A stretch of DNA of 36,899 nt from Limibacillus sp. (GTDB lineage: Bacteria > Pseudomonadota > Alphaproteobacteria > Kiloniellales > CECT-8803): NCBI GenBank assembly GCA_037379885.1, contig JARRJC010000009.1, positions 52,725 to 89,623 on the forward strand, given 5' to 3'. The translations under genes and the position numbers were made by a program. Below, in pieces: positions 23,588-35,444 of the stretch. Numbering within the stretch: position 1 is the first letter of the stretch; each line of letters begins with the position of its first letter. Below the pieces are notes generated by a model. The model was not told the origin of the DNA. It saw only the letters and a list, made by a program, of their open reading frames with translations, and ran no database searches.

Positions 23588-25015
23588 ATGGGCAGAAGCG
23601 AGGCCGAGCGGGATGTCAGCGAAGAGTGGGCGAAGGTACGGGGACGCCTGCGCGAAGAGGTAGGCGAGGCCGCCTTCCGTAGCTGGCTCAAGCCGCTGAC
23701 CTTGGTCGGGCTGCATAATGGCAGCGTGCGCCTGGCGGTGCCGACCCGCTTCATGCGCGACTGGGTCACCTCCAACTACGCCGACCGTCTGCGCGCCCTC
23801 TGGACCTCCGTCGATCCTTCCCTCAAGGGCGTCGAGATCATCCTGCGCACCAATCCGACCCGCGCCCCGGTGGCCGGGGCCGGCCATGGCCAGCCCAAGA
23901 TCGCCAGCAGCGTGGAGCGGGACGCCGAGGACGCGGCGACCCTGGAGTCCGTGAAGGCGCCGCAGGAGCGCGCCCGCGACGGCTACAACGAGATTTCAGC
24001 GCCGCTCGACGCGCGCTTCACCTTCGAGAGCTTCGTGGTCGGCCATCCCAACGAGTTGGCCTACGCCGCCGCGCGCCGCGTCGCGGAGGCCGACGCCGTG
24101 CCCTTCAACCCCTTGTTCCTCTATGGCGGGGTCGGGCTCGGCAAGACCCACCTGATGCACGCCATCGCCTGGCATCTGCGCAAGCGCTCGCCGCAGAAGA
24201 AGGTCATCTACCTCTCTGCCGAGAAGTTCATGTACCAGTTCATCCGGGCCCTGCGCACGAAGGACACCGTCGCCTTCAAGGAGCAGTTCCGTTCGGTCGA
24301 TATCTTGATGATCGACGACGTGCAGTTCATCGGCGGGCGCGAGTCCACGCAGGAGGAGTTCTTTCACACCTTCAACGCGCTGGTCGACCAGAACCGTCAG
24401 GTCATCATCTCCGCCGACAAGAGCCCCTCCAACCTGGAAGGCGTGGAGGAGCGCATGCGCTCGCGCCTCGGCTGGGGGCTGGTGGCCGAGATCGATTCCA
24501 CGACCTATGAGCTGCGCCTCGGCATCCTCCAGTCCAAGGCCGAGCAGTTGGGCGTCACCGTGCCCACCAAGGTCCAGGAGTTCCTGGCCCACAAGATCAC
24601 CTCCAACGTGCGCGAGCTCGAGGGCGCGCTGAACCGCATCGTGGCCCACTCCACCCTGGTCGGGCGTCCGGTCACGCTGGAGACGACGCAGGAGGTGCTG
24701 CACGACCTGCTGCACGCCAATGCGCGCCGGCTCACGATCGAGGAGATCCAGCGCCGCGTCGCCCAGCATTTCGATATCCGCCACGCCGACATGGTTTCCG
24801 CCCGCCGCGCGCGCGCCGTCGCCCGCCCGCGTCAGGTCGCCATGTACCTCGCCAAGCAGCTCACCTCCCGCTCCCTGCCGGAAATCGGCCGGCGTTTCGG
24901 GGGACGCGACCACACCACCGTGATGCACGCCGTGCGCAAGGTGGAGGAGCTGAAAAGCCTCGACATCGGCTTCGCCGAAGAGGTCGATCTGCTGCGCCGC
25001 ATGCTGGAGAACTGA
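23588..25015 (+). CDS. dnaA: Chromosomal replication initiator DnaA
   Basis: AAA+ initiator that binds DnaA boxes at the origin and opens the duplex, 475 residues. Domain I is at about 10-90 (EEVGEAAFRSWLKPL), a variable linker follows, and the AAA+ domain starts near 145. Walker A is GGVGLGKTH (180-188) and Walker B is ILMIDD (239-244). Domain IV carries the DNA-binding signature GGRDHTTVMHAVRKVEEL from residue 438. The ATG is preceded by GGGTGGAG at eight bases. It heads the dnaA-dnaN-recF-gyrB cluster; its long leader with hairpins suggests post-transcriptional control. Confidence 0.98.
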   Translation: MGRSEAERDVSEEWAKVRGRLREEVGEAAFRSWLKPLTLVGLHNGSVRLAVPTRFMRDWVTSNYADRLRALWTSVDPSLKGVEIILRTNPTRAPVAGAGHGQPKIASSVERDAEDAATLESVKAPQERARDGYNEISAPLDARFTFESFVVGHPNELAYAAARRVAEADAVPFNPLFLYGGVGLGKTHLMHAIAWHLRKRSPQKKVIYLSAEKFMYQFIRALRTKDTVAFKEQFRSVDILMIDDVQFIGGRESTQEEFFHTFNALVDQNRQVIISADKSPSNLEGVEERMRSRLGWGLVAEIDSTTYELRLGILQSKAEQLGVTVPTKVQEFLAHKITSNVRELEGALNRIVAHSTLVGRPVTLETTQEVLHDLLHANARRLTIEEIQRRVAQHFDIRHADMVSARRARAVARPRQVAMYLAKQLTSRSLPEIGRRFGGRDHTTVMHAVRKVEELKSLDIGFAEEVDLLRRMLEN

Positions 25016-25098
25016 GCGGCTTTCCTAGCGCCTCTCTAAGCGCCATTCCGCGCCACTTTCCAGCCCCCCGGCGGGTGCAAGAAAACTGCTGAAAATCC

Positions 25099-25127
25099 TT
25101 ACGATTCGGGGCGCGCTGGTCTATAGT
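25099..25127 (+). promoter_or_regulatory. Candidate promoter ahead of dnaN
   Basis: TTACGA (25099-25104), exactly 17 bases, then TATAGT (25122-25127), 5 of 6 to the -10 consensus. The -35 match is 3 of 6. Transcription would start near 25134, some 130 bases before the dnaN ATG and about 10 bases before an intrinsic terminator. Confidence 0.5.
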
Positions 25128-25144
25128 GCAACCCCGTGTCCTTC

Positions 25145-25166
25145 CGGCCCGATTCGGGCCGTTTTT
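25145..25166 (+). terminator. Intrinsic terminator between dnaA and dnaN
   Basis: CGGCCCG (25145-25151), loop ATT, CGGGCCG (25155-25161), then TTTTT (25162-25166): a perfect GC-rich stem with U-tract. It could end the dnaA message, or attenuate transcripts starting at the candidate promoter just upstream. Confidence 0.85.
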
Positions 25167-25265
25167 CCAAGCAAGACGCGGGTTTGATTTGGGGGTCGCT
25201 CCGGGCGGCGCAGAGCGCGCTTGGGGCGGACATTTGAGACGCATAGAAAGCCATTTGGAAACGCC

Positions 25266-26384
25266 ATGAAACTGACCATCGAACGCGCTGCCCTTCTGAA
25301 ATCGCTCGCCCACGTGCAGAGCGTCGTCGAGCGGCGCAACACCATTCCCATCCTGTCCAACGTGCTGATGGAGGTTTCCGGCGGGACGCTCTCCCTGACC
25401 GCGACCGACATGGACCTGACCATCGTCGAGCAGGTCGCCGCCGATGTCTCCGCCGAGGGCGCGACCACGGCCCCGGCGCACACGCTCTACGACATCGTGC
25501 GCAAGCTGCCCGATGGGGCGCAGATCGAGATTTCTCTGTCCGGCGACAACGGCCAGATGACGCTGGCCGCCGGGCGCTCGACCTTCACCCTGACCACGCT
25601 GCCGCGCGAGGACTTCCCGGCGGCCAATCAGGGCGACCTGCCGCAGTCCTTCGCGGTGCCGGCGACCGAGCTGCGCAACCTGATCGACCGCACGCGCTTT
25701 GCCATCTCCACCGAGGAGACGCGCTACTACCTGAACGGCATCTACCTGCACGCCGCCGAGAACAGCGGCGTCGCCGTCCTCCGGGCGGTGGCGACCGACG
25801 GTCACCGTCTGGCGCGCTTCGAGATGCCGCTGCCCGACGGGGCCAAGGGCATGCCGGGCGTGATCGTGCCGCGCAAGACCGTGCAGGAGCTGCGCAAGCT
25901 GCTGGACGAGGCCGACGACACGGTGAACATCGCCATCTCCGAGACGCGGGTGCGCTTTTCCTTCAACTCGACGGTCCTGACCTCGAAGCTGATCGACGGC
26001 ACCTTCCCCGATTACGAGCGGGTCATCCCCTCGGGCAACGACAAGACCATGGAGGTGGACCGCAAGTCGATCCGCGAGGCCGTGGACCGCGTCTCCACCA
26101 TCTCCTCGGAGAAGAGCCGCTCGGTTAAGCTGGCGCTCTCCAATTCCACGCTGGTGCTGTCCGCCACCTCGGCGGAGAACGGCAGCGCGGTGGAGGAGAT
26201 CGAGGTCGGCTTCACCGGCGAGCCGCTGGAGATCGGCTTCAACTCCCGCTACCTGCTCGACATCGCAGAGCAGATCGAAGGCGGAGAGGCCCTGTTCCAG
26301 TTCTCCGACGCCGCCTCTCCCACCATCGTCCGCGATGCGAGCGATGAATCGGCGCTCTACGTGCTGATGCCCATGCGGGTTTGA
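25266..26384 (+). CDS. dnaN: DNA polymerase III sliding clamp (beta subunit)
   Basis: Ring-shaped clamp that tethers DNA polymerase III and repair enzymes to DNA; 372 residues in three similar domains, standard for the family. The start MKLTIERAALLKSLAHVQSV, the VERRNTIPILSNVLM segment, and the end ALYVLMPMRV, which forms part of the client-binding cleft, are all typical. The ATG at 25266 follows TTGGAAA. It lies 250 bases after dnaA, with a terminator and a likely promoter between them, and its TGA lies 11 bases before the proposed recF start. Confidence 0.98.
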   Translation: MKLTIERAALLKSLAHVQSVVERRNTIPILSNVLMEVSGGTLSLTATDMDLTIVEQVAADVSAEGATTAPAHTLYDIVRKLPDGAQIEISLSGDNGQMTLAAGRSTFTLTTLPREDFPAANQGDLPQSFAVPATELRNLIDRTRFAISTEETRYYLNGIYLHAAENSGVAVLRAVATDGHRLARFEMPLPDGAKGMPGVIVPRKTVQELRKLLDEADDTVNIAISETRVRFSFNSTVLTSKLIDGTFPDYERVIPSGNDKTMEVDRKSIREAVDRVSTISSEKSRSVKLALSNSTLVLSATSAENGSAVEEIEVGFTGEPLEIGFNSRYLLDIAEQIEGGEALFQFSDAASPTIVRDASDESALYVLMPMRV

Positions 26385-26395
26385 GGGGCAGCCGC

Positions 26396-30089
<3,694 letters not shown>

Positions 30090-30095
30090 GCGTTC

Positions 30096-31586
30096 TCACC
30101 GCTCCGTCAGCTTCAGTTCGATCCGGCGGTTCCTTGACAGCGCTTCGGGGGTGTCCTCGTCCGTGATGGGCTGGTGTTCGCCGAAGCCGGTGGCGGCGAG
30201 GCGGTTCGGGGGGATGCCTTCGCCGATCAGGAAGGTGACGACCGAGAGGGCGCGGGCCGTGGAAAGCTCCCAGTTGGACTGGAACTCGGGCGTCCTGATG
30301 GGGCGCTTGTCGGTGTGGCCGTCGACGCGCAGGATCCAGTCGATGTCCTCGGGAATCTCGGCGGCGATTTCTTTCAGGGCCCCGGCGAGGTTCGCCAGCT
30401 GGGCCTTGCCCTCGGCGCCGATCTCCGCTTCGGCGGTCTCGAACAGCACCTCGGACTGGAAGACGAAGCGGTCGCCGACGATGCGGATGTCGTCCCGCTC
30501 ACCCAGGATTTCCCTCAGACGCCCGAAGAACTCGGAGCGGTAGCGGGCCAGTTCCTGCACCTTGGTCGCCAGCGCCGCGTTCAGGCGTTCGCCCAGGTTG
30601 ATGATCTGGGCGCGCTGGTCCTCGTTCAGCGCCTCGGAGGCCTCCAGCGCGGCGTTGAGACGGGCGAGCTGGCGGCGCAGGGCCCGAAGCTGCTGGTTCA
30701 GCAGCAGAACCTGGGCCTGCGCCTCTTCGGTCAGCGCCACCTGATCGGCCAGCAGGTCCTTCTGACGCGCCAGTTCACCCTCGGTCTCGGCCTCTGAATC
30801 GAGGGCCGCCTGCACCTTCGCCTCCAGGTTCGCCACCTCGCGCCGAAGCTGGTCGCGCAGGTCGCGCAGGATCGCGAGTTCGGCGACCTGGGCCTCGAGC
30901 TGGCCGCGGTCGATCTGGATGGTCTCCTCGGCGGCGGCGAGGCGGCTGCGCAGTTGTTCGGCCGCCTCTTCGGAGCTTTGAAGGCGGGTCGAGAGCTCGG
31001 CCACCTGCTCGCGCAGGGAATCGCGCAGCTCGCGCAGCATGCCGAGTTCGGCGAGCTGGGCCTCGATGGTCTCCTTGTCCGCCTCGATGGTGGCGTAGGC
31101 GTCTTCGAGCTGGCCCCTGAGCTCGGCGGTGACGGAGAGCTGGCGGTCCAGTTCCTCGGCCAGTTCAGCGTTGCGGTCCTGGGTCTGGTCGAGGCTGCCG
31201 CGCAGGGAGGACAGCTCGTCGCGCGCGCTCAAGATTTGCTGGTTCAGCGCCTCCCGCTCCGACTGGAGCGAGGCGATCTGGTTGCGTAAGGAATCGCGCG
31301 CCTCCAACGAGGCCTGCAACTCGCTGGATAGGCTCGCCATGTTGAGCCTGAGGTCGGCGTTGGCCGAGCGCTCCAGCGCCAGCAGGTCGGACAGCTCGGC
31401 GACCTCCGCCTCCAGCCGCGCCAGGGCCTGATCGCGCCCGGAAAGCGCGTTGGAGAGGTAGAACTGCGCGACGATGAAGACCAAGAGGACGAAGATCACC
31501 ACCAGCAACAGGGTCGCCAGCGCATCCACGAAGCCCGGCCAGATGTTGACCGCCCGCCTGCCGCCGCCGCGTCTGAGGTTATACAT
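30096..31586 (-). CDS. MotB/OmpA-like protein: one TM helix, long coiled coil, OmpA C domain
   Basis: Inner-membrane protein of 496 residues. A short basic N-terminus precedes one transmembrane helix (about 19-44, from [14 protein letters not shown]) with an Asp (Asp21) near its start, where MotB carries its proton-binding Asp. Residues 50-350 are an almost unbroken coiled coil, including two copies of a 33-residue block exactly 56 residues apart. The OmpA-like domain (about 375-496) has [16 protein letters not shown] and ATGFGEHQP, with the Asp and Arg that bind peptidoglycan. Its start is four bases after the MotA-like gene. Presumed partner: a MotA-like ion-driven stator. What it drives is unknown. 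Not flagellar by context. Confidence 0.85.
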
Positions 31587-31590
31587 GGGT

Positions 31591-32757
31591 CTAGCGGTTC
31601 TCTTCCTCGGCCAGCGCGGCGATGGTGCGCGCCAGCAGGCGGATCTCGTTGCGCATCTCGGTGACGATCTCCGACCGGCCCTTGCCGATCTCAGAGGCGA
31701 TGCGCTCCAGCCTGTGGTCCATGGAGCGGATGTGGTCGCGGGTCAGGTCGTCGACCCCGCCGCCAGACTCCGGCGCCTTGTCGGCCAGCTTCTGCAAGAC
31801 GGGGCGCAGGTCGTCCTGGGTTTCCACCAGACGGCGTAGCACCTGCTGCTCGGAGCGCATCTGGTCGGTCAGCAGCGCCATGCGCTCTGCCAGCGCGGCC
31901 AGGTCCTGATCCAGCGAGGAGCGGTTCTCCTCCCCGCGCGCCATGATGCGCTGCAGGTTGTCCAGGGAGTCGGCCGTCTGCTCCAGAAGCGCCTGGATGT
32001 AGGCCGGAACGGAGCCTTCGCCCTCCGCGCCGCCGCCGCCGGAGGAGATGCGGGTGTTGCTGGAAAGCCATTCCTCCAGCTCGTTGACGAAGCGGTTGTG
32101 GGCCTGGGCGGCCTGGAGCTCCAGGAAGCCCAGCACCAGCGACCCGGCGAGGCCGAAGAGCGAGGAGGAAAAGGCCGTGCCCATGCCGGAGAGCGGCGTT
32201 TGCAGCCCGGCCTTCAGCTCATTGAACATGACGCCGGCATCGCCGCCGTCCACGCGCAGGTTCTGGATGGTGTCGCCGACCGCGCCCACCGTCTCCAGAA
32301 GGCCCCAGAAGGTGCCGAGCAGGCCCAGGAAGACCAGCAGGCCGATCAGGTAGCGGGAGATCTCGTGGGTCTCCTCGATGCGGCTGGAGATGCCGTCGAG
32401 GATCGAGCGCAGCGTCATGGTAGAGAGGGTGAGGCGCCCCTTGCGCTCCCCGATCATGGTGGCGAGCGGGCTCAGGAGGCGCGGCGCGCGCTGCTGGGTC
32501 ATCTCGCCGGGCAGCACCAGATTGTAGCCGCTGGAGTCCTGCTTCAGGCTTTCCGCGAAGGCCGTCTCGGGATAGAGCCCGATCACGCTCTTGAAGATGA
32601 AGAGCACGCCGAGGCCCAGCACCAGCAGGATCATGCCGTTCAGCACCACGTTGGCGGCGAAGGCGTCGGCCAGACGCGGATAGAGCAGCACCGCCGCCAC
32701 CGCGACCAGCGCCAGGAACACCAGCATGCGGATCAGAAATCGGGTTGGACGGGTCAT
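31591..32757 (-). CDS. MotA/TolQ/ExbB-like proton channel family protein
   Basis: Membrane protein of 388 residues with four predicted helices at about 9-26, 37-58, 134-158 and 193-214. The third contains GLLGTFWGLLETVGAV and the fourth LSGMGTAFSSSLFGLAGSLVLGF, the pore-lining helices typical of MotA/TolQ/ExbB channels. The loop between helices 2 and 3 is about 75 residues long and cytoplasmic. After helix 4 comes a cytoplasmic tail of about 170 residues with a GGGG linker (240-243) and heptad-rich coils. It is followed by the MotB-like gene with a 4-base gap, so they are almost certainly partners. Function beyond ion-coupled force generation is unknown. Confidence 0.85.
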   Translation of the reverse strand: MTRPTRFLIRMLVFLALVAVAAVLLYPRLADAFAANVVLNGMILLVLGLGVLFIFKSVIGLYPETAFAESLKQDSSGYNLVLPGEMTQQRAPRLLSPLATMIGERKGRLTLSTMTLRSILDGISSRIEETHEISRYLIGLLVFLGLLGTFWGLLETVGAVGDTIQNLRVDGGDAGVMFNELKAGLQTPLSGMGTAFSSSLFGLAGSLVLGFLELQAAQAHNRFVNELEEWLSSNTRISSGGGGAEGEGSVPAYIQALLEQTADSLDNLQRIMARGEENRSSLDQDLAALAERMALLTDQMRSEQQVLRRLVETQDDLRPVLQKLADKAPESGGGVDDLTRDHIRSMDHRLERIASEIGKGRSEIVTEMRNEIRLLARTIAALAEEENR

Positions 32758-32892
32758 TTCAGGCTCTCATCCCCCTTAGGTGGAAGCGGGTCCGGTGTAG
32801 GGGCCCGGCGAGGGCGCCGTTCCGGCCCTTCGGTCTCTTTTTGCGCCGCCATTCTAGGCCAGGAACTGCGGCAAAAAGGTGGCTGTGCCTTG

Positions 32893-32946
32893 GCCCTGCA
32901 CGATGCCTCAGCGCTGCACGATGCCCTAGCGCTGCACGATGATGTC
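32893..32946 (-). repeat. Three tandem 18-bp copies spanning the OmpA-like gene's end and stop codon
   Basis: On the minus strand the unit is ATC GTG CAG CGC, stop, GGC. The copy at 32929-32946 encodes the last Ile-Val-Gln-Arg; the TAG and GGC follow at 32923-32928. The next copy repeats Ile-Val-Gln-Arg with TGA instead of TAG, and the third is diverged and has no stop. Because 18 is a multiple of three, every copy stays in frame, giving a backup stop codon 18 bases downstream. Confidence 0.85.
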
Positions 32947-33996
32947 AACCCGGTCGGCCTCGCCGGAAAGATTGGAGGCGCCGAGCGGGCGGATCTCCAC
33001 CCGCGTCGAGACGATCCCCTGCTGGATCAGGAAGCCGCGCACGGCGAGCGCGCGCGCCAGCGAGAGGCGCCGGGCGCGCTGGTCGCTCGCTTCTTCTCCG
33101 GCCGCGTAGGCCATCAGCGTGATCTGCGCGCCGGGGCGCAGCTTCGCGCGGTCGGATGCCTCGGCCAGGGTCGGCGCCGCGCCGTCCGGCAGTCTGGAAG
33201 AGCCGGGCTCGAAGGCGAGGGTGAAGACGTCGCCCGGCGGCTGCTGCAATTCGGGCGGAATCTGCTCGCCCTCTTCCTCTGGCTCCGCTTCCTCGACCGC
33301 TTCCGCCGGCGCGTCCGGCTGGCCGGTCACATCCTCGACCGGGGCCACGGGCACCGCGGGCGGCGCTGCGGCCTCTCCGGCCTCCTCGGCGGGCGTTTCC
33401 TGCTCCTGAGCGACGTCGCTTTCAGGCTCGGGGGCAGGCTCGGGCGCAGGGGCGGGCGGCGTCTCCGCAGACGGCGGGGGCGCGGGTGCCGCTTGTGGTT
33501 CTGGTGCGGGCGCAGGCGCAGGGGCCGGGGCTGGCTCAGGCGCTGGCGCTGGCGCGACCGGAACCGGTGTCTGGTCGATCTGCTGGCTTTCGGCGGCGGG
33601 TTGGGCGGGCGCTTCCGGTTCGGGCGTCGCGGCGACTTCCGGCTCGGGCGGTGTCTCGGCGGCGGGCGCGGGTGCGGGAGCAGGCGTCGGCGCCGGTGTC
33701 GGCGCCGGGGCGGCGTCGGTCACGCGCTCCGGTGCTTCGGGCAGGCTTTCCTGGGTCTGCGGGCGCAGGACCGGCGGCACGTAGACGCCTTCAGGCAGAT
33801 GATAGACGCCGCTGCCGCTGATGATCGTGGTGCCGGCGGCGGGATCTTCGGGGATTGTTTCCTGAGCCAGACCGCCGCCCAGAGGCAGCGCCACCGCGAG
33901 CAGGCTCACGGCGCTGAGCAGGGCCAGCTTCTCGTGGGATCGCCGGGTCTGGCGCATCTGCCTGTTCAGGAGTTGTTGGGCCTCGTTGACGGCCAT
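32926..33996 (-). CDS. Exported OmpA-like protein with a long Pro/Ala-rich linker
   Basis: A 356-residue protein. A 23-residue polar, basic N-terminus is followed by a hydrophobic stretch (LALLSAVSLLAVALPLGGG, 24-42) and a possible signal peptidase site after GLA at 44. If uncleaved it would be a membrane anchor. Residues 95-255 are low-complexity Pro/Ala/Glu (PAPTPAPAPAP and variants). The last 100 residues are OmpA-like: VFTLAFEPGSSRLPD, then RRLSLARALAVRGFLIQQG. The Asp that contacts peptidoglycan in OmpA is replaced: AYAAGEE stands where GYTD is expected. It lies 168 bases upstream of the MotA-like gene on the same strand, suggesting a joint role. Function unknown. Confidence 0.8.
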   Translation of the reverse strand: MAVNEAQQLLNRQMRQTRRSHEKLALLSAVSLLAVALPLGGGLAQETIPEDPAAGTTIISGSGVYHLPEGVYVPPVLRPQTQESLPEAPERVTDAAPAPTPAPTPAPAPAPAAETPPEPEVAATPEPEAPAQPAAESQQIDQTPVPVAPAPAPEPAPAPAPAPAPEPQAAPAPPPSAETPPAPAPEPAPEPESDVAQEQETPAEEAGEAAAPPAVPVAPVEDVTGQPDAPAEAVEEAEPEEEGEQIPPELQQPPGDVFTLAFEPGSSRLPDGAAPTLAEASDRAKLRPGAQITLMAYAAGEEASDQRARRLSLARALAVRGFLIQQGIVSTRVEIRPLGASNLSGEADRVDIIVQR

Positions 33997-34068
33997 GATG
34001 TTCTTACCTTTTGCCCCCGCGTGATTCGCGGCTCAAAGACTAAGGGCAGACAGGGGCGCGAACAACCG

Positions 34069-34869
34069 CTAAGCGCTCTTTTCCTTGCGGCTAAGCAGCT
34101 TTCGCAAGACGAGATTGATCTCGGCGTTGGTCGCGAGGATGCTGTCGCCCTCCAAGCGGAAGGCGCGCCCGTCGATCGCGGACACGAAGCCGCCGGCTTC
34201 GCGCACCAGCAAGACCCCCGCCGCCACGTCCCAGGGCATCAGGTCCCGCTCCCAGAAGCCGTCGTAGCGCCCGGCGGCCACATAGGCCAGATCGAGCGAA
34301 GCAGCGCCCCAGCGCCGCACGCCCGCGGTCTCGGCCATGACCCGCTCCAGCTCCCCCAGGAAGCGGTCGTGGTCCTTCGCGCCCTTGAAGGGGATGCCGG
34401 TCGCCAGCACGGACTCTTCCAGCCGCCGCCGTCCGGAGACACGCAGGCGCCGGTCGTTCAGGTAGGCGCCCTTGCCGCGCTCGGCGAAGAAGAGCTCTTC
34501 CTTGATGGGGTCGTAGATCACCGCCGCCGTGGGCTCGCCGCGCTCGACCAGCGCCAGAGAGACGGCCCAGTGCGGCAGGCCGTGCAGGAAGTTCGTGGTG
34601 CCGTCGAGCGGGTCGCCGACCCAGACGGCGTGCTCGCCGATCTTCTCACCCGCCTTGGCGGACTCCTCCAGCAGGAACCCGATCTCCGGGCGCGACTGCT
34701 GCAGTTCCTCGCGCAGCTTGCGCTCGGCCTTCAGGTCGGCCTGGGTGACGAAATCCGCCGGGCCCTTCTTGGAGACCTGCAGGTTCTCGACCTCGCCGAA
34801 GTCGCGCTGGACGGAGCGGGCGGCCTTGATGACCGCCTTTACCATGACGTTGATGAGGGGGGAGCGCAT
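34069..34869 (-). CDS. suhB: Inositol monophosphatase family protein
   Basis: Mg2+-dependent phosphatase of 266 residues, SuhB-like. Metal-site motifs: LEES (67-70), DPLDGTTNF (86-94) and the second Asp motif PWDVAAG near 218. The opening MRSPLINVMVKAVIKAARS is typical of alphaproteobacterial members. SuhB hydrolyses inositol-1-phosphate and in E. coli also joins rRNA antitermination complexes; which role applies here is not shown. It starts 8 bases after efp, so the two are cotranscribed, an order common in alphaproteobacteria. The OmpA-like gene follows after 72 bases. Confidence 0.92.
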   Translation of the reverse strand: MRSPLINVMVKAVIKAARSVQRDFGEVENLQVSKKGPADFVTQADLKAERKLREELQQSRPEIGFLLEESAKAGEKIGEHAVWVGDPLDGTTNFLHGLPHWAVSLALVERGEPTAAVIYDPIKEELFFAERGKGAYLNDRRLRVSGRRRLEESVLATGIPFKGAKDHDRFLGELERVMAETAGVRRWGAASLDLAYVAAGRYDGFWERDLMPWDVAAGVLLVREAGGFVSAIDGRAFRLEGDSILATNAEINLVLRKLLSRKEKSA

Positions 34870-34877
34870 GCCGGGCG

Positions 34878-35444
34878 TCAGTCCTTGGCGCGCTCGACGT
34901 AGGAAGCCTCGGCGGTGTTGACCACCACGCGGGTGCCGCTTTCGATGTGCGGCGGCACCATGATGCGCACGCCGTTGGCCAGCATCGCCGGCTTGTAGGA
35001 GGAGGAAGCGGTCTGCCCCTTCACCACGGCGTCGGCCTCGACGATCTCCTCCACCACCGTTTCCGGCAGGGTCACGGAGATGGGGTCGTCCTCGTAGCTC
35101 TCGATGGTCACCATCATGCCCTCCGCGAGAAAGGGCAGGGGCTCGCCCACCAGGTCGGCGTTAACGGTGATCTGCTCGTAGGTCTCCTGATCCATGAAGG
35201 TCAGCATCTCTCCGTCGGCGAAGAGGAACTGATAGTCCTTCTGATCCAGGCGCACGCGCTCGACCGTCTCGGAAGAGCGGAAGCGCTCGTTCAGCTTGGT
35301 CCCGTGGCGGATGTCCTTCAGCTCGACCTGGGCGTACGCGCCGCCCTTTCCGGGCTTCACGTGCTGCAGTTTCACCGCGCGCCAGAGCTGGCCGTTGTGC
35401 TCGATAACGTTGCCGGGACGGATTTCGTTGCCATTGATCTTCAT
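34878..35444 (-). CDS. efp: Elongation factor P
   Basis: Translation factor of 188 residues that relieves ribosomes stalled on polyproline stretches. It has the three-domain beta-barrel sequence: [17 protein letters not shown] at the start, the loop PGKGGAY with Lys33, the position beta-lysylated in E. coli, then [15 protein letters not shown] and the end [14 protein letters not shown]. Cotranscribed with suhB. Two Pro-rich proteins of the window, notably the OmpA-like protein with its Pro/Ala linker, would be natural clients. The Lys-modifying enzymes EpmA and EpmB are not in the window. Confidence 0.97.

Follow-up and report, generated by a model that had tools for sequence, protein, structure and literature searches.

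Background

Ion-driven stator pairs, each of a channel (A) subunit and a B subunit, have been described as MotAB/PomAB of the flagellum, TolQ-TolR and ExbBD, and ZorAB of the Zorya system (8vvn, 8qyd). A 2025 survey did not see the OmpA peptidoglycan domain in non-flagellar B subunits (PMC12505986). The NCBIfam family PRK09039 names a B subunit only, assigns it no function and does not cover the A subunit. The present analysis concerns a MotA-like and MotB-like gene pair of Limibacillus sp. and the gene for an OmpA-like protein beside it, all within a stretch of 36,899 nucleotides (the window; assembly GCA_037379885.1, contig JARRJC010000009.1, positions 52,725 to 89,623). Contig C9, at whose end the window lies, is part of a 3.1 Mb genome that is 99.1% complete. 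The pair is a stator-type pair that very probably belongs to neither the flagellar nor the Tol system. It is read here, with a probability of about 0.45, as an ion-driven motor of the envelope, probably proton-driven, whose target is peptidoglycan or the outer membrane, at the pole and septum. The three genes are as follows.

30096..31586, minus strand: motB-like gene, 496 amino acids, PRK09039 'peptidoglycan -binding protein' (open reading frame (ORF) list; NF006543)
31591..32757, minus strand: motA-like gene, 388 amino acids, four transmembrane (TM) helices, ZorA/TolQ fold (ORF list, model, Foldseek)
32926..33996, minus strand: gene of the OmpA-like putative tether protein, 356 amino acids (ORF list, OmpA domain match, model)

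The locus resembles each of the described systems in part. It has the four TM helices of the flagellar A subunits and the TM Asp and OmpA peptidoglycan domain of their B subunits, but its occurrence is independent of FlhA and its B subunit has a coil of hundreds of residues. The channel fold and the aligned ion-path Thr/Ser residues are shared with TolQ-TolR and ExbBD, and tolQ is often found 10-25 kb from the pair; however, the B subunit here combines a long coil with an OmpA domain, TolQ is encoded separately in the genome, and the module lacks any TolA- or TolB-like gene. ZorAB is similar in giving the top Foldseek match and in having a cytoplasmic helical tail and an OmpA-type B subunit. 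In contrast to ZorAB, the pair is without zorC, zorD or zorE neighbours, holds a conserved core-genome position and has a short, variable tail. DUF802 pairs (PF05650) are the next-nearest relatives outside the class and have the same A-B order, although their similarity is weak (50-65 bits). In the loci concerned (L212-L216, of which the DUF802 assignment is confirmed for L212 only) a much longer A subunit of ~700-850 amino acids is followed by a short OmpA-type B subunit of 215-225.

Relation to the flagellar and Tol systems

The sequence-only reading of this DNA had taken the pair for an ion-driven stator outside the flagellar and Tol systems. The content of the genome supports this and contradicts the alternative it had named, an ordinary flagellar stator or Tol system. 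In the 99.1% complete genome there is no match to FlhA, and the only PF01618 protein over the cut-off is TolQ, with Pal on the same contig. In a sample of 240 alphaproteobacterial genomes, the MotA-like gene is present in 158 (roughly two thirds), mostly in single copy, and FlhA in 139. Both are present in 95, showing them to be independent (Fisher P = 0.34), and 63 genomes have the pair without FlhA. FlhA is a mere stand-in for the flagellum in these counts, because the FHIPEP family also takes in type III secretion homologues. TolQ matches are found in 235 of the 240 genomes. An ordinary flagellar stator is therefore rejected through the absence of FlhA from the genome and the independent occurrence of the pair. 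The Tol system is rejected through the separate tolQ and pal and the composition of the module run, which is efp, inositol monophosphatase (IMPase), OmpA-like, MotA-like and MotB-like.

The MotB-like gene is next to the MotA-like gene in 137 of 142 loci, and the pair is kept in genomes of only 0.7-0.9 Mb. It is an ancient alphaproteobacterial stator family, mostly single-copy. In the window the gap between the MotA-like and MotB-like genes is 4 bases, and the OmpA-like gene ends 168 bases upstream of the MotA-like gene. The three-gene module proposed at this position from the sequence alone is borne out by the ORFs, the OmpA domain matches and the predicted MotA-like fold. Chance ORFs are excluded, since the same gene order is conserved across the class.

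The MotA-like and MotB-like proteins

The AlphaFold2 model of the MotA-like protein (predicted local distance difference test score 85.8) has helices at residues 5-24, 37-59, 113-166 and 174-234 and a helical tail at 252-387. Foldseek matched the model to ZorA, TolQ, ExbB and PomA with a probability of ~1.0, the first-ranked match being ZorA 8vvn (E = 8e-4). A second aligner gave Z scores of ~12 to TolQ (3.8 Å over 195 residues) and ~9-10 to MotA/PomA, where unrelated helical bundles give 8-10. Thr149 and Ser199 do not vary among the MotA-like sequences, and in an alignment with the TolQ of this organism they are matched by Thr residues. By its predicted fold and by these ion-path residues, which would face the Asp of the B subunit, the protein is a member of the MotA/TolQ/ExbB/ZorA superfamily. 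Its closest named relatives are from Kiloniella and Pelagibius, at ~60% identity.

31594..32052, minus strand: MotA-like cytoplasmic helical tail, residues 236-388 (model, relatives' lengths)

The tail has ~170 residues in most relatives and is short or absent in some lineages. A profile search of the PDB with query A1 returned mostly coiled-coil matches, which stem from this tail. When the window proteins were searched, no NCBIfam or Pfam model scored over its cut-off for the MotA-like protein; PF01618 reached 15.8 bits, under the Pfam gathering cut-off of 22.9. At E <= 0.01, PF01618 matches 44 of 56 MotA-like sequences. The window pair matches Zorya profiles weakly (ZorA1 2.2e-13, ZorB3 2.4e-24).

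30126..30446, minus strand: OmpA domain of the MotB-like protein, its GHTD...R diaminopimelate-binding site intact (domain match, alignment)
30522..31451, minus strand: MotB-like periplasmic coiled-coil linker, residues ~46-355 (sequence, relatives' lengths)
31452..31541, minus strand: MotB-like TM helix, residues ~16-45, with invariant Asp21, codon 31524-31526 (alignment)

The MotB-like protein scores 475.2 bits with NF006543 (PRK09039), for which the cut-off is 305, and the PRK09039 models (NF006542-NF006546) match all 52 of the aligned MotB-like sequences. PRK09039 is an equivalog family apart from the MotB models. The TM Asp and the peptidoglycan-type OmpA domain that had been noticed in this protein both hold up in the alignment. 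W16, P17, V20 and D21 are invariant in the 52 sequences; Asp21 lies within WPGFVDAL, where the TM helix begins. Every sequence also keeps both the Asp and the Arg of the GHTD...R site in the OmpA domain (E = 1.9e-17). The linker varies from 147 to 742 residues across relatives. The association between the length of the MotA-like tail and that of the MotB-like coil is weak and not significant (Spearman 0.19, P = 0.08).

The OmpA-like protein

32971..33213, minus strand: degenerate OmpA-like domain with AYAA in place of GHTD and the Arg retained (domain match, alignment)
33247..33765, minus strand: Pro/Ala-rich linker, residues ~78-250 (sequence; low-confidence coil in the model)
33865..33996, minus strand: signal peptide, residues 1-44 (sequence)

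This protein had been described as exported and as having a Pro/Ala linker, and both features are found: the signal peptide ends at GLA|QE and the Pro/Ala stretch is of ~170 residues. Among its relatives the median Pro+Ala fraction of the linker is 0.42. After the signal peptide, 48 of 70 sequences have a box, V-x-V-[DN]-x-S-V-L-D-x-L, against a shuffle mean of 0.16; the pattern was set after these related sequences had been viewed, and the shuffles exclude an effect of composition and do not test function. The window protein's own copy of the box is degenerate. Its OmpA domain (E = 4.1e-9) is modelled with high confidence. In the family GHTD is mostly replaced by A-Y-A-x, with the Asp left in 3 of 33 sequences and the Arg in 33 of 33. 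In the window protein too the Asp is gone, so that its diaminopimelate site has just one of the two residues. The conserved box, the lost peptidoglycan-binding Asp and the proximity of the cluster to tolQ are new here.

34069..34869, minus strand: inositol monophosphatase family gene (suhB-like), conserved neighbour (family match, relatives' loci)
34878..35444, minus strand: efp, elongation factor P (EF-P), conserved neighbour that opens the five-gene run (family match, relatives' loci)

On the minus strand, efp and the IMPase gene are followed by the OmpA-like, MotA-like and MotB-like genes in a five-gene run. A listed MotA-like match occurs together with a strong OmpA-like match in 100 genomes. 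The two genes adjoin in 98 of these, with a median of 68 bases between them, and lie on separate contigs in the other two. Among the 126 loci with enough upstream sequence, the OmpA-like gene is upstream of the pair in 94, in 81 of them with IMPase and EF-P. A strong OmpA-like match without a MotA-like gene among the matches listed is seen in 30 genomes. Eighteen such loci were fetched, of which L115 proved to hold a divergent pair and the other 17 (L098-L114) none. In 15 of the 17, the genes for EF-P and IMPase stand beside the OmpA-like gene in the same orientation. L107 begins inside the OmpA-like gene, placing its upstream region outside the stretch, and L112 shows neither neighbour. By eye, the next large ORF beside the OmpA-like gene resembles an ABC transporter in L098, L099, L101 and L114, and a similar ORF follows motB in L078. 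The probable history in those lineages is therefore that the pair disappeared from between these genes or never entered there.

The pair is also found without the OmpA-like gene, in some Alphaproteobacteria and in other classes. The OmpA-like gene is therefore associated with the pair but not obligatory, since 17 loci keep it without the pair and the pair occurs alone. The comparison of neighbourhoods that the sequence-only reading had called for shows strong linkage of the three genes, although the OmpA-like gene and the pair can each be found alone. The suggestion that the OmpA-like protein is a periplasmic component of the system stands as far as its adjacency to the pair goes, but not in the sense of a fixed part.

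Proposed function and alternatives

It is proposed that the MotA-like and MotB-like proteins form an inner-membrane stator motor of the MotAB/TolQR/ExbBD/ZorAB kind for the alphaproteobacterial envelope, assembled, judging by homology, in a 5:2 ratio. Ions would cross between Asp21 of MotB and the hydroxyls of the MotA ring (Thr149, Ser199), and their passage would turn or shift the axle. The long coiled coil of the MotB-like protein would pass this motion to the OmpA domain that grips peptidoglycan, and the most likely place of action of the motor would be the pole and septum, alongside Tol-Pal, with peptidoglycan or the outer membrane as its target. The OmpA-like protein is a probable accessory periplasmic tether, in which an N-terminal docking box and a flexible Pro/Ala linker would carry an OmpA-like head missing half of its peptidoglycan-binding site. 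Ion flux, 5:2 assembly, rotation, site of action and tether role are all putative in this model. If it is true, the pair is a stator outside the flagellum whose B subunit has a genuine OmpA peptidoglycan domain, contrary to the 2025 survey, and the published division of B subunits, flagellar ones with the domain and non-flagellar ones without, becomes blurred (PMC12505986). A class-wide motor could be a missing part of the building of the alphaproteobacterial pole and septum beside Tol-Pal, and ZorAB would gain a housekeeping cousin for comparison.

Functional data come from Komagataeibacter hansenii ATCC 23769, as described in passages from two reports. Its motA and motB encode 348 and 321 residues, their green fluorescent protein (GFP) fusions are polar, and cells that overexpress them are longer and chained, spread more and make looser cellulose (PMC6570709, PMC6315621). 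The species is non-flagellated, and soft-agar colony spreading was tripled by overexpression of motA or motB (PMC6570709). In contrast to the module here, these passages do not mention a third gene. A genome of the Acidisoma family (Acetobacteraceae; G315) has the module (L197) with products of exactly 348 and 321 amino acids. In the text of a paper on Rgs proteins and polar growth in Sinorhizobium, a search found no mention of MotA or OmpA (PMC7327166), and literature searches for screens naming these genes found none.

The genes for the pair are also located near tolQ. The best listed tolQ shares a contig with the MotA-like gene in 57 genomes; the two are within 40 kb of each other in 50 of these, at a median of 16 kb, and divergent in 43. 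Two intervals, with genes named by eye from the sequence, have thiE-efp-IMPase on one side, and on the other side either tolQRAB-pal (L219) or ruvCAB-ybgC-tolQRA (L221). Across the class, the thiE-efp-IMPase-OmpA-MotA run is found close to the tol genes.

Several points weigh against an envelope motor at the pole and septum. About one third of the genomes have no detectable pair, and therefore the motor is not universally needed. The K. hansenii genes appear to be family members because lengths, family and gene order agree, a membership that is supported and not proven. Their reported phenotypes are from overexpression, and the GFP fusions were overexpressed too (PMC6570709, PMC6315621). No loss-of-function data for the pair were found in the literature searched. 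In the window genome tolQ is on a different contig from the module, and the neighbourhood of tolQ also holds unrelated genes. The nearness to tol-pal may be an ancestral gene order, because the OmpA-like gene keeps its neighbourhood without the pair.

Other functions for the pair have less in their favour than the envelope motor. Gliding in myxobacteria is powered by AglRQS, and the pair could likewise power the gliding or spreading of non-flagellated cells, as the K. hansenii spreading result and the 63 genomes with the pair and no FlhA would allow. This is improbable, since the pair is equally common with FlhA and persists in genomes of 0.7-0.9 Mb, the conserved neighbours include no recognised adhesin or gliding gene, and the spreading was seen under overexpression, in elongated cells (PMC6570709). 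A Zorya-type anti-phage system, in which a ZorAB-like pair senses envelope damage and triggers an effector, is more improbable again. ZorA is the nearest characterised relative by profile, with weak matches of all 56 MotA-like members to the PADLOC ZorA1 profile (best 1.4e-17), and by Foldseek rank, and the helical tail is like that of ZorA in kind. However, some lineages have a short tail or none, the flanks are efp/IMPase and gyrB, and the class-wide conserved order in mostly single copy is unlike that of patchy defence islands. With zorC, zorD and zorE not among the immediate neighbours, the Zorya system is set aside. An ordinary flagellar stator or Tol system shares the fold of the pair, and is scarcely credible in view of the FlhA results, the separate tolQ and pal, and the separation of PRK09039 from the MotB models.

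The part played by the OmpA-like protein is a separate question. That it works together with the pair is slightly favoured. It may instead be a mere neighbour kept by the efp-IMPase run with no functional tie to the pair, which is compatible with the motor readings and is a possible, if less favoured, explanation. The OmpA-like gene remains beside efp/IMPase in loci without the pair, an ORF resembling an ABC transporter lies next to it in four of these, as such an ORF comes after motB in L078, and the pair lacks it in other classes; on the other side are its adjacency in 98 of 100 genomes at so short a gap, and its export with a cell-wall-type domain. A Ton/Tol-like transducer, with the Pro/Ala OmpA-like protein as a TonB/TolA analogue, a driven rod passing force on to the outer membrane, is unlikely. 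A Pro/Ala linker with a C-terminal domain, encoded next to a stator pair, would suit such a rod, and the box that follows the signal peptide could be a docking site for a partner. This reading is weakened because the signal peptide is cleavable: the N-terminus ends in an AxAQ-type, signal-peptidase-like site in 71 of 129 relatives, with no evident retained TM anchor as in TonB/TolA. A lipobox-like motif is found in 7 of 94, and the protein is present without the pair in the 17 fetched loci. Equally doubtful is the fullest form of the motor proposal, in which the three genes are a separate alphaproteobacterial trans-envelope force-transducing system parallel to Tol-Pal, and a ZorA-like motor anchored to peptidoglycan would act on a bivalent, soluble tether. 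This tether, built from the N-terminal box, the Pro/Ala linker and the Asp-less OmpA-like head, would link wall or outer membrane at the pole and septum.

Neighbouring genes and other features

The MotB-like gene ends 6 bases from a convergent gyrB, named from the sequence. The genes dnaA, dnaN, recF and gyrB, also named from sequence, are consecutive at window positions 23588-30089 and convergent with the module. Short imperfect direct repeats (GGCATCGTGCAG) are present at window positions 32886-32935, at and just past the stop codon of the OmpA-like gene. An open frame of 934 codons on the plus strand, at window positions 32098-34902, is antisense to the module and is a probable side effect of the high G+C content of the coding sequence. 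L206-L210 are five loci from the phylum's other classes in which the pair is found with no OmpA-like gene or efp detected nearby; in L210 a gene with an AbiTii domain adjoins it.

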